Positions 669-8,064 of a stretch of 64,000 bases of DNA are shown here, in pieces; the stretch's first letter is position 1, and every line of letters starts with the position of its first letter. Under the pieces are notes generated by a model. That model had not been told where the DNA came from and ran no database searches. It saw only the letters and a program-made list of their open reading frames with translations. The position numbers and the translations under genes are program-made. Source of the stretch: a virus; IMG/VR virus record IMGVR_UViG_3300042893_000474, positions 1 through 64,000 of that record; one strand, given 5' to 3'.

Positions 669-1307
669 ATGGCATATACTAAAGAACAAATCGAAGCCGC
701 TGTTAAAGCCAAAGGATACGTTTGGTTTGAAGGCGAAAAAGGTTACGACCTAAACATTGTAGGCGTACGTAACTCCTCTACTGGAAATGATGTAACTAAC
801 TTGTTTGACGACAAGATTACAGTTTCTTACAAAGTAGATGGTAAATGGATGTTTCACGAATGGCAGGCTACTACTGACCCAGGTACAAAAGGTGTGAAGG
901 AATTTCACAACGCTGGGGGTGTTGCTCGTTTGGTTCCTAATCAATATCGTGGTTCTCACGCTATCGGTTTGCACCAAGGTAAGTATGAGGCTTTGAGACA
1001 AGCGAAGAATGTAAAAGTTTATCGTGACGCTAACAAGGATATGACTTATGACGAAAAAACCATTACTGAAGGTCTTTACGGAATCAACATCCACAAAGCT
1101 GGTACAGATTCTACTTATGTAGAAAACTGGAGTGAAGGTTGTCAGGTATTCAAGCGTGAGCGTGATTTTAATGAGTTTATGGCTCTTGCTCGTCAGGCAC
1201 GTTTGATTTACGGAAACTCTTTTACTTACACTTTGCTTGAGTCTGGTGACTTTGTTGTTGCTGATAAAGTTGCAGGTGAAGCTAAAAAAGCTGCAAAGAA
1301 AAAATAA
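669..1307 (+). CDS. YkuD-like (L,D-transpeptidase fold) protein, putative endolysin
   Basis: A 212-residue protein without a signal peptide. The region around residues 138-160 reads GINIH, 12 residues, then SEGCQ: His142, Ser155 and Cys158 fit the H-(14-17)-[S/T]xGC signature of the YkuD L,D-transpeptidase/carboxypeptidase fold, whose catalytic residue is the Cys. The residue before the Gly is Glu rather than the usual His. An Ala/Lys-rich tail follows. Next to a two-TM holin candidate, the simplest reading is a phage endolysin cutting peptide crosslinks in peptidoglycan, or an enzyme that edits them. The motif is seen in the sequence; the lytic role is inferred. Confidence 0.6.
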   Translation: MAYTKEQIEAAVKAKGYVWFEGEKGYDLNIVGVRNSSTGNDVTNLFDDKITVSYKVDGKWMFHEWQATTDPGTKGVKEFHNAGGVARLVPNQYRGSHAIGLHQGKYEALRQAKNVKVYRDANKDMTYDEKTITEGLYGINIHKAGTDSTYVENWSEGCQVFKRERDFNEFMALARQARLIYGNSFTYTLLESGDFVVADKVAGEAKKAAKKK

Positions 1308-1765
1308 TGAAAAATTGGAAGGCACTTTGTGGTCTTCTATTCTTGGTCAACTCCTGTTTTTGTCAAACAATTTCAAAAGCAGGAGATGGCTGGGATACAA
1401 AGATTGATTCTGCAATACAGATAATTAAAAAATACGACTATAATAAGTACGTTGTTTTTAAAGAAGTCTGTCAGCGAGTTGATTTTTGGAAAAGTTCTTT
1501 CTCTTCCACGAGTGTAGTTGAAGGAGACTACACTATACTTATAGCAGATGCAGACATTAAGTTAAACTCAATCAATAACTTAGCATGCATTCTAGTTCAT
1601 GAAAGTCAACATCTTGTGTATATAATGCAGGACAGTGATATGAGTGAATACGAGGAAGAGTTTAAATGCTATATGTATGAATTATCCTTTCTTCAAAACA
1701 TCCCAACCCCCGAGCCTTGGTTACTGGCAAACATTTATGAAAAAATACACAAATATAAACAATGA
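1307..1765 (+). CDS. Secreted zincin-like metallopeptidase
   Basis: A 152-residue protein with an N-terminal signal peptide (hydrophobic core about residues 6-18, then Cys-Phe-Cys-Gln). HESQH at residues 98-102 is an HExxH zinc-binding and catalytic motif, with acidic residues in a following helix that could supply the third ligand. The protein is short for a peptidase and is probably a minimal zincin domain exported to the periplasm or beyond. The start overlaps the upstream stop (TAATG) and the end overlaps the next start (ATGA), so it is translationally coupled to the T9SS protein. It may process neighbouring exported proteins or attack the envelope; substrate unknown. Confidence 0.6.
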   Translation: MKNWKALCGLLFLVNSCFCQTISKAGDGWDTKIDSAIQIIKKYDYNKYVVFKEVCQRVDFWKSSFSSTSVVEGDYTILIADADIKLNSINNLACILVHESQHLVYIMQDSDMSEYEEEFKCYMYELSFLQNIPTPEPWLLANIYEKIHKYKQ

Positions 1766-3654
1766 AAAAAATCATTTTATTTGTAGTCGGGGTGTTGTCT
1801 CTTACTACTAGCCTGTTTGCACAAAGCGCAAGCACATCTCCTGGAACTGGTCACTGGGTCGTAATTGATTCAGGGTATCAAGTAGCGACAAACACCGTTG
1901 GTCAAACTGTTGCTCCTCTCCATTTCTACAACACTTCTACTTCAGAGAAGATTACGGGTATGCAATTCCGTGTATTCTATGATAAGACTGCATTTGTAGG
2001 AGTTGTTCCTTCTCTAAAAATTTCTACTTCTGACCAATACCTTCAGTATGTAGATAGTAATTTACAAGGATTCTTAACTGTAACTCTAGCTTACACAGGA
2101 TCTAGTTCTAGTTTTAACTATTCTAATGGAGCTACATTTGACTTAACTTTTACTCACGCAGGTGAAACTGTGTGGAACAACTTAGATTCTATCAAGACTT
2201 TGAAAGTTGCAGGAGTTAAATCATTCTCTAACAGAGCTGCTACTAACTGGGGTAACGATACTACATTGGTAGTTTACTCTTATGGTGGTCGTTTCAATCA
2301 GAAGCTTTTACGTTTTGCTGCTAAGTTCAAGAACGTAACAGGGTCTGACGCTAAAAACTTAACAGTTAGTTTAGAGAAGAGAGCTAAAGCTTCTTCTACT
2401 TGGACTGAAGTTGCTGCACAAAAAACTAACTCTAGTGGAGTAACTGTGTTTAAGAAATTCTTAGATACTACTTATTGGGATGTACGTATAGTAGTTAAAG
2501 GGGACACAATGATTCCTGGTAACATATTCTCTACTGCTGATGCACAAAAGATTAACCAAGCTATCTTAGGTCAATACACTCCAACAGGATTTGACTACTA
2601 TACAATGGACGTAAACGGAACTACTGGAGATATTTCTATTGCTGACGTATACGCTGTTTACGGAAGATTGGCAGGTAGATTTACTGCATGGCCTAACTCT
2701 AAAAAAGACGTAATGTTCTTTACAGTTGCTGAATACAATGCAATCAATGGCGCCACATCTAACTTGACCTCCACATACTCTACTATAAATAACTTTACTT
2801 ACAGTGTAGATGGTAATGATTCTATCACTTACTATGTAGCTGTTAAAGGAGACGCCAATGCTACAGGCTTTAAGATGGCTCGTTTGACTCCTATTAAAAT
2901 CATTAACCAAGCAAACGCCAAGAAGTATATTATAGACAAAACAGTAAGTTACGATGACCCTTCTTTAGAGACTATTGAAATCAACATGCCTAAGGTAAAA
3001 GTAGAAGATGGCAACTTAGTAAACGTTCCTGTTAAAGTTTTGACTAACGGTAAAAACCTAAGTGCACTTCAACTAGATCTTAAGTATGATACAGCTTACT
3101 TAGAGTTTAAGAACGTAGAAGTAACTGAGAAGATTAGAAAGTGGACTTCTTACACTAACCGTTCTAATGGAATCGTTTCTTGGGGCGGTGCAGACTTAAC
3201 CAACTCTAATCTATTAAACGATGGAGAGTCAGTGTTTACACTTCAGTTCATAGCTAAGAAACCTCAAGACTCTTGGGCTACTGCGGCTATCTGGACATCA
3301 GAGAAATACGTAGGAGACAAACAAGCTAAGGATATGAACATTACTCCTACTATGGGCATTATTGAAGTTCGTAGAAAAGGAACAGTTAATTTTAATCAAG
3401 TAGAGGAGTTAGTTGCTTTCCCAAATCCTACTGAAGGAGCTATTCAAGTACAGTTTAAGTTAGCTGAAGAATCCGATGTTAACTTGTCTCTCTATAATCA
3501 AATAGGACAACTAGTTCAAAATATTCTAGACAAGCGCATGCCTGTAGGAAGCTATCGGTATAGTGTAGACTTAGAAAGACTTCCTGATGGAGTTTACATC
3601 TTAACTTTAAGAACAGAAAAACAAATCCTAGATTCTAAACTATTAATCATATGA
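1762..3654 (+). CDS. T9SS-exported surface protein with cohesin-like and dockerin-like modules
   Basis: 630 residues. A signal peptide ends near residue 21 (LFAQ). Residues about 30-170 and 412-535 look like two cohesin-type beta-sandwich domains, each with an FYDK or KYDT strand typical of the fold. Between them are a transthyretin-like sandwich (about 180-255) and a dockerin-like helical module (about 260-370) with a Ca-loop-like segment at 283 (DVNGTTGDISIAD). The last 80 residues have the type A T9SS sorting pattern: FPNPTEG, an LYNQIGQ segment, then LPDGVYILTL. The protein should therefore cross the outer membrane by the host T9SS and be anchored or released at the surface. A related dockerin-like module lies in the gene at 6419. 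The role in infection is unknown. Confidence 0.75.
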   Translation: MKKIILFVVGVLSLTTSLFAQSASTSPGTGHWVVIDSGYQVATNTVGQTVAPLHFYNTSTSEKITGMQFRVFYDKTAFVGVVPSLKISTSDQYLQYVDSNLQGFLTVTLAYTGSSSSFNYSNGATFDLTFTHAGETVWNNLDSIKTLKVAGVKSFSNRAATNWGNDTTLVVYSYGGRFNQKLLRFAAKFKNVTGSDAKNLTVSLEKRAKASSTWTEVAAQKTNSSGVTVFKKFLDTTYWDVRIVVKGDTMIPGNIFSTADAQKINQAILGQYTPTGFDYYTMDVNGTTGDISIADVYAVYGRLAGRFTAWPNSKKDVMFFTVAEYNAINGATSNLTSTYSTINNFTYSVDGNDSITYYVAVKGDANATGFKMARLTPIKIINQANAKKYIIDKTVSYDDPSLETIEINMPKVKVEDGNLVNVPVKVLTNGKNLSALQLDLKYDTAYLEFKNVEVTEKIRKWTSYTNRSNGIVSWGGADLTNSNLLNDGESVFTLQFIAKKPQDSWATAAIWTSEKYVGDKQAKDMNITPTMGIIEVRRKGTVNFNQVEELVAFPNPTEGAIQVQFKLAEESDVNLSLYNQIGQLVQNILDKRMPVGSYRYSVDLERLPDGVYILTLRTEKQILDSKLLII

Positions 3655-7621: not shown

Positions 7622-7623
7622 CC

Positions 7624-8064
7624 ATGAAAAAACTAATTATAATCCTAATTACTGCATTTGCAGTTACACTAAACGCTCAATGTTATAAGATTGACACTGT
7701 GCAAAACCACACTCATCTACGTACTATAGCAGGTAGACCTGTTGATTTTGGAGTAGTAGCTACGGCAGAACAATTAATTGCAAATAAATACGCTTTGTGT
7801 GACACAGGCATTAAAGTAAAACTAGCAATTAATACAATTGCTTTACCTCAAAGGCTTATCAACATTATAGGAATACAGTTATTAAAAAGGGATTATGTAG
7901 TCAATATGTCTATCACGGCTAATAACATTACACATTATTCTAGGAACGTAAAGACTGTGTATGTTAATGCTATGTTCTTAACAGTTGAGGAGATTCCTCA
8001 CAATAAAAAAGCATATTCTAAAGCAGTTGAGAAGTGTTTAATTGATTTGATTAAGGAGCTATAG
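7624..8064 (+). CDS. Exported protein of unknown function, 146 aa
   Basis: The N-terminus is a clear signal peptide ending NAQ at about residue 19, with a cysteine right after it. It is not a canonical lipobox because Gln precedes the Cys. The mature protein of about 127 residues has two cysteines that could form a disulfide and a C-terminal amphipathic helix. It starts 2 bases after the previous gene and is the last gene before a hairpin terminator, so it belongs to the envelope operon. No family recognised; its place suggests a periplasmic partner of the CsgG-like protein or barrel, which is inference only. Confidence 0.6.
   Translation: MKKLIIILITAFAVTLNAQCYKIDTVQNHTHLRTIAGRPVDFGVVATAEQLIANKYALCDTGIKVKLAINTIALPQRLINIIGIQLLKRDYVVNMSITANNITHYSRNVKTVYVNAMFLTVEEIPHNKKAYSKAVEKCLIDLIKEL

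Follow-up and report, generated by a model that had tools for sequence, protein, structure and literature searches.

A conserved phage cassette encoding a putative lectin scaffold and a CsgG-fold/barrel envelope apparatus, with a possible role in late remodelling of the infected cell surface

Why would a phage encode, in one operon with its lysis genes, a series of proteins that all appear destined for the envelope or surface of its host? The question is raised by the contig of a crAss-like phage (major capsid protein at 15991-17520, PF23898, 1.3e-26, with TerL relatives in agreement), in which positions 1307-8064 of the window, i.e. the 64,000-nucleotide stretch analysed, encode eight proteins, here called A to H, of which six bear export signals and two are membrane proteins. 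The operon also includes a holin-like gene and an endolysin gene 5′ of this cassette. All eight genes were found where the initial annotation had placed them, the starts of D, E and F most likely being 4006, 4304 and a GTG at 4977, respectively. The features are as follows.

353-382, + strand: Bacteroidota-type promoter-like site TTGACTTATTTTTTCAATAGTTTATTTTTG (TTG-N19-TAnnTTTG)
403-666, + strand: holin-like small membrane protein, first operon gene (predicted TM segment; family found beside the cassette)
669-1307, + strand: endolysin (PHROG 33083 endolysin, 7e-10; phrog_3000, 4e-34)
1307-1765, + strand: A, exported putative metallopeptidase with HESxH motif (weak SprT-like match, 0.008)
1762-3654, + strand: B, with cohesin-1, Ig-like domain, dockerin-like module, cohesin-2 and T9SS type-A sorting domain (Pfam/TIGR matches)
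1888-2223, + strand: B cohesin-like domain 1 (PF00963, E 1.8e-4, alone below cut-off)
2521-2862, + strand: B dockerin-like module, homologous to that of G (G-module profile, residues 254-367, 8e-26)
2977-3366, + strand: B cohesin domain 2 (PF00963, E 2.6e-12, over cut-off)
3418-3648, + strand: B T9SS C-terminal sorting domain (PF18962, residues 553-629; TIGR04183)
3651-3998, + strand: C, membrane protein of holin-like size and topology (TM segments)
4006-4323, + strand: D, predicted inner-membrane protein (one weak TM) with a disordered Ala/Pro/Gln tail ending in Trp
4304-4993, + strand: E, CsgG-fold lipoprotein (AF2 pLDDT 77; Foldseek; lipobox VYGC)
4977-6422, + strand: F, exported; N-terminal domain, Ser/Gly linker and C-terminal 12-strand barrel (AF2, Foldseek; alternative TTG start at 4956)
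5799-6413, + strand: F predicted 12-stranded outer-membrane barrel (strands span 282-486, counting from the TTG start)
6419-7621, + strand: G, exported; exchangeable binding domain and C-terminal dockerin-like module (alignment; EF-hand-like loop)
6539-7183, + strand: G variable domain (Pfam), replaced by C-type lectin, PA14 or GEVED in relatives
7223-7618, + strand: G dockerin-like module, loop DVNDDSKITVAD (alignment, loop count, profile match to B)
7624-8064, + strand: H, exported, possibly a reduced CsgG-type domain (hhalign to E)
8089-8110, + strand: weak AT-rich terminator-like hairpin (GTTAAG-GGTAT-CTTAAC-TTTTT; fold)

The genes form a tight unit. From the holin-like gene through H the intergenic gaps are 2, -1, -4, -4, 7, -20, -17, -4 and 2 nt, so the translational coupling proposed earlier is real. 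Six of the products (A, B, E, F, G, H), but none of those of the 28 other genes of the window, begin with a hydrophobic segment whose score is 2.0 or more; together with the TM segments of C and the one weak TM of D, this bears out the view that every product is exported or membrane-bound. Ala-Gln ends the signal peptides of B, F, G and H, four in number as had been noted. We infer from its size, TM segment and neighbours that the product of the first gene is a holin; it is named by no library, and its family lies beside the cassette in 103 of 164 loci. The promoter predicted at 353-382 stands as a Bacteroidota-type site, six exact matches occurring in the window versus 1.8 expected, all on the + strand and one of them serving the next operon at 8154; as a generic sigma-70 promoter it scores no better than chance. 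The site is kept upstream of the holin gene in most crAss-like relatives inspected and is nearly absent at the starts of A (1/53) and B (1/67). Since the cassette thus has no promoter of its own and would be read from that of the holin and endolysin, late timing is suggested. As for the terminator, the proposed sequence exists, but it is AT-rich, was not called by a terminator scan, and the surrounding region has a fold little better than that of shuffled sequence (z -1.5).

E is present in at least 580 IMG/VR contigs and in three loci among about 85,000 cellular genomes, all three on probable phage contigs. Two of these are short MAG contigs (the E of one, L205, being about 89% identical to that of the window) and the third is a phage-like MAG contig of 254 kb that also holds a T4-type capsid gene, and we rejected a host operon on these grounds. 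Searching 395 genomes of the phylum with a profile yielded one strong match, again on a contig of this kind, and two weak ones; a search of 200 genomes with F was empty and is uninformative by itself. By its sequence distribution, then, the cassette is conserved and phage-specific, and the hosts of its carriers appear to be Bacteroidota-type water bacteria. The carriers belong to two phage lineages with different capsids (crAss MCP versus T4 Gp23), the T4-type ones reaching 308 kb and including an isolate, the T4-type myovirus Flavobacterium phage vB_FspM_immuto, cultured with Flavobacterium sp. LMO8. At least B, D, E, F, G and H occur in 127 of 164 E-holding loci and all eight genes in 68, C being found in 95. 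The order A-B-(C)-D-E-F-G-H is shared by the crAss-like phages and one T4-type set, other sets being shuffled but complete. The gene-order check put forward in the initial annotation thus came out positive, and this conservation of content and order supports its idea of a dedicated system. Gain and loss are frequent within crAss-like phages, where the whole cassette has come or gone together on five occasions or more. We rejected the idea that E often moves from one phage lineage to another, since the E tree needs few background changes and cross-lineage transfer is therefore rare.

The two most readily interpreted proteins are B and G. The former has a signal peptide and a type-A C-terminal sorting domain, the hallmarks of T9SS cargo, as had been claimed, and matches Cohesin (1e-10), Por_Secre_tail (1e-11) and TIGR04183 (5e-10); the type-A sorting domain recurs on immuto gp015. 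Its two cohesin domains had been missed, and they strengthen the idea of a dedicated system: PF00963 exceeds its cut-off in 14/14 cassette phages versus 1/14 control genomes. The claimed dockerin-like modules are present in B and G, mutually homologous and confined to these two proteins within the whole 93.7-kb contig. An EF-hand-like loop, one clear calcium loop, was found in 130 of 136 unique G sequences, the second repeat being degenerate by eye, so that there is one clear loop instead of two; the Dockerin_1 match of one G homologue (L012) is weak (0.0067, 17.0 bits versus a cut-off of 22.9). No structural gene carries the module, and decoration of the virion by B and G was accordingly discarded. 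The binding domain of G is a C-type lectin, PA14, GEVED or one unnamed type. Between the loci L005 and L034 it has been swapped, with 96.7% identity on both sides. Such clean recombination of an outer domain between near-identical phages resembles that of adhesins and tail fibres. G as a target of a diversity-generating retroelement (DGR) was rejected, 12 cassette phages having no reverse transcriptase, and so was the idea that G duplicates a receptor-binding domain of its phage, since no other protein there has the domain. Because G lacks a T9SS tail, its crossing of the outer membrane is an assumption.

The remaining proteins point to the envelope. A carries HExxH in 78/78 unique homologues, in agreement with the secreted HExxH protein reported before, and D ends in Trp in 126/126. 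For E, Foldseek gave CsgG (4uv2) as best match (prob 1.00, E 4.5e-7), the AF2 monomer model having a TM of about 0.5 to CsgG, and hhalign to cellular CsgG gave prob 71 versus at most 0.3 for shuffled controls; a lipobox-like motif is present in 84 of 119 homologues, and the CsgG-like lipoprotein of the initial annotation is therefore upheld as to fold and lipobox. The Pfam CsgG model PF03783 matches neither the window E nor anything in the E-holding genomes, and a search of PDB sequences with the E profile found no match, so E was rejected as a true CsgG and the likeness is one of fold only. The monomer model contains long strands at 128-146 and 149-166, their tip being charged, and E may lack the membrane hairpins that in CsgG build a 36-strand nonameric pore; the proposal that the apparatus opens the outer membrane thus keeps the fold in its favour but has the missing Pfam match and possibly missing hairpins against it. 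Structure prediction likewise agreed with the claimed barrel behind a flexible linker, F having 12 predicted strands, mostly at pLDDT 70-87, plus helices (the Fap exporter combines its 12 strands with a plug helix and a coiled-coil trimer), although overall confidence is low (pTM 0.46). Its Foldseek matches are TamA, KdgM, NanC and FapF, the last at E 2e-3, below generic barrels. H, suspected by eye to be CsgE, is better described by a weak similarity to E (hhalign prob 90.6, E 1.3e-6; column-shuffled controls at most 0.3), which falls to prob 32 once the comparison is confined to the mature chains. Searched against PDB sequences, H, F and B yielded chance matches only, and none of the Pfam, NCBIfam or PHROG matches of D, F or H named CsgF or CsgA/B.

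Type VIII secretion modules (CsgG-CsgF, CsgA/B, FecR) have been described in pelagiphages and OM43 phages, where they are exchanged among phage families and have been proposed to mediate cell stickiness ('sibling capture') or lysis (PMC7029224, PMC9599517, PMC9004378). Like the present cassette, they are phage-borne multi-gene sets with a CsgG-fold protein. However, the cassette is found in other phages with other predicted hosts, no CsgF or CsgA/B is matched, E falls outside PF03783, and a T9SS scaffold, cohesins, dockerin-like lectins, a 12-strand barrel and D are added. As in a cellulosome, a scaffold with cohesins is combined with partners bearing a dockerin-like module; unlike a cellulosome, the cassette is phage-encoded and lacks a catalytic CAZyme, its module shows one clear calcium loop, the scaffold would be anchored through T9SS, and G offers binding domains only. 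F resembles FapF, the Pseudomonas functional-amyloid transporter, in its predicted 12-strand barrel after a helix and long linker, and the pair recalls PelB/PelC-type barrel-plus-lipoprotein exporters, E resembling CsgG, FlgT and PelC by fold, but no sequence relation was detected and no Fap or Pel gene is present. In immuto, gp013-gp019 are homologous to G, B (split into gp014 and gp015), D, E, F and H, mostly annotated as hypothetical in GenBank; A and C are missing, E has no lipobox, and a secreted nuclease (gp012) is added. We found no description of the combination in the open-access literature, as the initial annotation had supposed, and claim that the cassette is novel at the system level, matching no system described there.

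Gene content, conservation, domains and an operon common with the lysis genes are what we observe. On this basis the most likely reading is a self-contained, horizontally exchanged phage module for late remodelling of the infected Bacteroidota cell surface. First, the host T9SS would export the scaffold B and anchor it on the outer face. Second, G, a sugar-binding domain on a dockerin-like arm, is predicted to dock on the B cohesins, and B may chain to B. Third, D (inner membrane), E (outer-membrane lipoprotein), F (barrel) and H (periplasmic) would form a trans-envelope conduit by which G, alone or together with B, could cross the outer membrane, as suggested in the models by the CsgG fold of E and by the inclusion of the export barrel FapF among the matches of F. 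We consider the chances of these three steps, taken jointly, to be evenly balanced. Finally, the displayed lectins would act as tethers between the infected cell, or its debris, and cells or particles nearby, and progeny would in this way be set free among new hosts; this step, taken alone, we hold only tentatively. The first two steps are the most secure and the last is the least. An undescribed phage-specific D-E-F-H export and display system with a B-G lectin scaffold, making of the dying cell a sticky hub on which new hosts are caught before it bursts or as it does so, is likewise possible, short of probable.

It could also be that the cassette is a lysis accessory, in which above all the inner-/outer-membrane pair D-E, together with F and the putative protease A, carries out or controls the outer-membrane step in the manner of spanins, B and G being passengers or loosening surface polymers. 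Tight linkage to lysis genes in most lineages fits such a role too. The cassette is co-transcribed with holin and endolysin in crAss-like phages, and a holin or endolysin family flanks 67 of 79 loci with full flanks, even though the endolysin differs in kind (PHROG 33083 versus peptidoglycan-binding/GH19). As for Rz/Rz1, D overlaps or abuts the lipoprotein gene E in most loci (overlap in 96/164), and cassette-free crAss relatives mostly hold a short TM gene and an exported gene at the same spot, a spanin-like layout; phage CsgG has already been proposed to regulate lysis (PMC9004378). Spanins, however, pair a coiled-coil inner-membrane protein with a small lipoprotein, whereas D has an Ala/Pro/Gln-rich tail without coiled coil, E has a large CsgG-fold domain (and in immuto no lipobox), six more genes lie alongside, and spanins need none of B, G and F. 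In the immuto lineage, moreover, the cassette adjoins ribonucleotide reductase and helicase genes, away from the endolysin, and we regard this explanation as rather unlikely. Superinfection exclusion or receptor masking, in which the host receptor is hidden under displayed lectins, or E-F prevent competing phages from entering and progeny from re-adsorbing to debris, also seems unlikely. Exchangeable sugar-binding domains and predicted surface display would suit it, and it is one proposed role for pelagiphage curli (PMC9599517), but no other protein of its phage shares the G domain (each genome has one C-type lectin, and the window G domain has no second match), co-expression with lysis genes is late, though it could shield progeny from debris, and a PADLOC search for anti-phage defence gave no matches. 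Nutrient or polymer scavenging, with A, B and G as a mini-cellulosome degrading or binding polysaccharide and E-F as an uptake pore, would account for cohesin, dockerin-like and carbohydrate-binding domains beside a putative protease, but is very improbable given binding domains with no glycoside hydrolase in the cassette and a late co-expression with lysis that leaves little time for benefit.

The same eight dark genes are thus found together in hundreds of genomes of aquatic phages from two unrelated lineages, mostly beside lysis genes, and since they do so they presumably pay for themselves. If remodelling of the surface is true, phages would give the dying cell a new surface, a lectin scaffold with swappable parts, by means of the host T9SS and their own CsgG-fold/barrel machinery; if instead D, E and F open the outer membrane, this would be a new kind of lysis step. 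One carrier virus, immuto, is in culture, which makes the module testable, and 'sibling capture', so far proposed for pelagiphages only, would become testable in a cultured Flavobacterium phage.

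The source contig of the window is viral and 93.7 kb long, and the window covers its first 64 kb. Judged by sequence, the phage is crAss-like, since it encodes a crAss-type capsid protein and a large terminase (TerL) related to those of crAss-like phages. The eight genes A–H, here called the cassette, belong to one operon:

353 to 8110, + strand: operon (promoter-like site, holin-like protein, endolysin, A–H, weak hairpin)
353–382, + strand: Bacteroidota-type promoter (pattern match)
1307–8064, + strand: genes A–H, downstream of the holin-like protein and endolysin genes
8089–8110, + strand: weak terminator-like hairpin at the operon end (pattern match)

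Distances between the operon genes range from −20 to +7 nt, which bears out the translational coupling proposed in the initial annotation, and the six exported proteins claimed there were recovered, with export signals in 6/8 cassette genes as against 0/28 other window genes. Six exact TTG-N19-TAnnTTTG sites (window 353, 8154, 14713, 35713, 55546 and 62048, all +), three times the chance expectation, look like a common phage promoter class; those at 353 and 8154 stand upstream of the cassette's own operon and of the one that follows it.

Relatives of E were found on at least 580 IMG/VR contigs, and its form in the cultured Flavobacterium phage immuto on 113, in pattern-based scans that miss distant relatives and whose contig counts are inflated by near-identical contigs. 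The gene-order search in relatives that the initial annotation called for revealed a conserved unit: at least B and D–H were kept in 127/164 loci with E, and all eight genes in 68. The order A-B-(C)-D-E-F-G-H occurs in crAss-like phages and one set of large phages; G-B-B-D-E-F-H, B-D-E-C-F-H-G and B-D-E-F-G-H-A were also seen. Carriers tested have a crAss-type capsid, a T4-type Gp23, or neither where contigs are partial, and their genomes reach 308 kb. Among deposited phage genomes the immuto isolates are the sole carriers found, with cassette genes annotated as hypothetical, cohesin or lectin. E is nearly missing from the cellular genomes searched. Three GTDB MAG contigs carrying cassette genes (L203, CAIWBA010000291.1; L204; L205) have the appearance of misbinned phage sequence. 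One is 254 kb long and includes a T4-type capsid gene; another, from a Flavobacterium MAG, measures 12.6 kb; the remaining one, 16.5 kb, comes from a Sphingomonadaceae MAG and bears a crAss-type cassette. The closest deposited TerL (37%) is that of Leptolyngbya phage Lbo-JY46 (L056, PP438436.1), whose host is reported to be a cyanobacterium. Such a host would be unusual for a crAss-like phage, unless the phage really infects a bacterium present in the co-culture.

A TerL phylogeny of the crAss-like relatives shows at least five gains or losses of the cassette as a block, and where it is missing the same slot mostly holds a short TM gene and an exported gene. In three cassette-free loci such genes follow the endolysin (L020 6261–7004, L031 6280–7006, L033 6757–7432), the short TM gene being coiled-coil-like by eye; these are candidate spanin-like pairs of Bacteroidota phages. 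The commonest neighbour of E outside the cassette is a holin-like protein (103/164 loci), two different endolysin families lie nearby in 86/164 and 53/164, and a lysis-gene family falls within the flank in 67 of the 79 loci with full flanks. On this gene-neighbourhood evidence the tie to lysis genes is strong, with an exception in the immuto lineage, where the cassette adjoins nucleotide-metabolism genes and a secreted nuclease; in L055 an exported NUC1-type nuclease (6205–6783) lies immediately upstream. Homing endonuclease-like genes have inserted into the cassette in several phages; examples in or beside it are L018 3082–3678, L009 312–731 and L061 3694–4416 and 8761–9402, one of the L061 pair occupying the expected endolysin start. 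Near D, some phages have an additional pair (L112 6228–7682, L057 7153–7413, L208 8018–9001) of an Ala-rich protein (327–387 aa) and a small TM protein, the latter present too in cassette-free L030 (2653–2913).

Four products are predicted envelope parts. D is an inner-membrane protein with a disordered tail, ending in Trp in 126/126 unique homologues. The label of CsgG-like lipoprotein given earlier to E holds for the predicted fold (pLDDT 77, pTM 0.71), for which CsgG is the best PDB match (prob 1.00), followed by FlgT, PelC and GNA1162; it does not extend to family recognition, as the Pfam CsgG model (PF03783) matched neither window E nor anything in the E-holding genomes checked. F is exported, and the outer-membrane barrel with flexible linker claimed for it agrees with the prediction, of modest overall confidence, of a long Ser/Gly linker and a 12-strand C-terminal barrel resembling TamA, KdgM, NanC and FapF. 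H, also exported, is possibly a reduced CsgG-type domain: its profile aligns with that of E at prob 90.6, against no more than 0.3 for column-shuffled controls, although the value drops to 32 for the mature chains alone.

Of the remaining products, A is exported with a HESxH motif invariant in the 78 homologues compared, and C is a membrane protein. B has two cohesin domains along with a dockerin-like module, and its tail is a T9SS type-A sorting domain. In L035 (1057–2724) a frameshift or stop divides B into two open frames; this may reflect an error in sequencing, or B may be naturally split there like immuto gp014/gp015. G is exported and its dockerin-like C-terminus is homologous to the B module (profile E 8e-26), which is confined to B and G among the proteins of the window phage. 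The outer domain of G is a C-type lectin, PA14, GEVED or the window's unnamed domain, and it is the sole exchange between L005 and L034, two phages 96.7% identical on both sides.

The cassette does not qualify as a curli system, as it gave no match to CsgF, CsgA/B or PF03783. By analogy, the nearest concept is that of the pelagiphage curli modules, in which a CsgG-fold pore module is exchanged between phage families and for which sibling capture or lysis has been proposed (PMC7029224, PMC9599517, PMC9004378); the cassette has T9SS, cohesin, dockerin-like and barrel parts in addition. No published description of the cassette was found in the open-access literature searched.

Our account is based on sequence and predicted structure. 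B should reach the cell surface via the host T9SS, directed by its sorting tail. Since B has cohesins and shares with G alone the dockerin-like module, the simplest reading is that B and G would form a scaffold bearing interchangeable binding domains. Where D, E, F and H occur, B is almost always present, and the four resemble an inner-to-outer-membrane conduit, which would carry G across the outer membrane; such a role would account for their staying together. The cassette may benefit the phage by cell tethering, by help with lysis or by exclusion, and the data rank these in that order without deciding between them.
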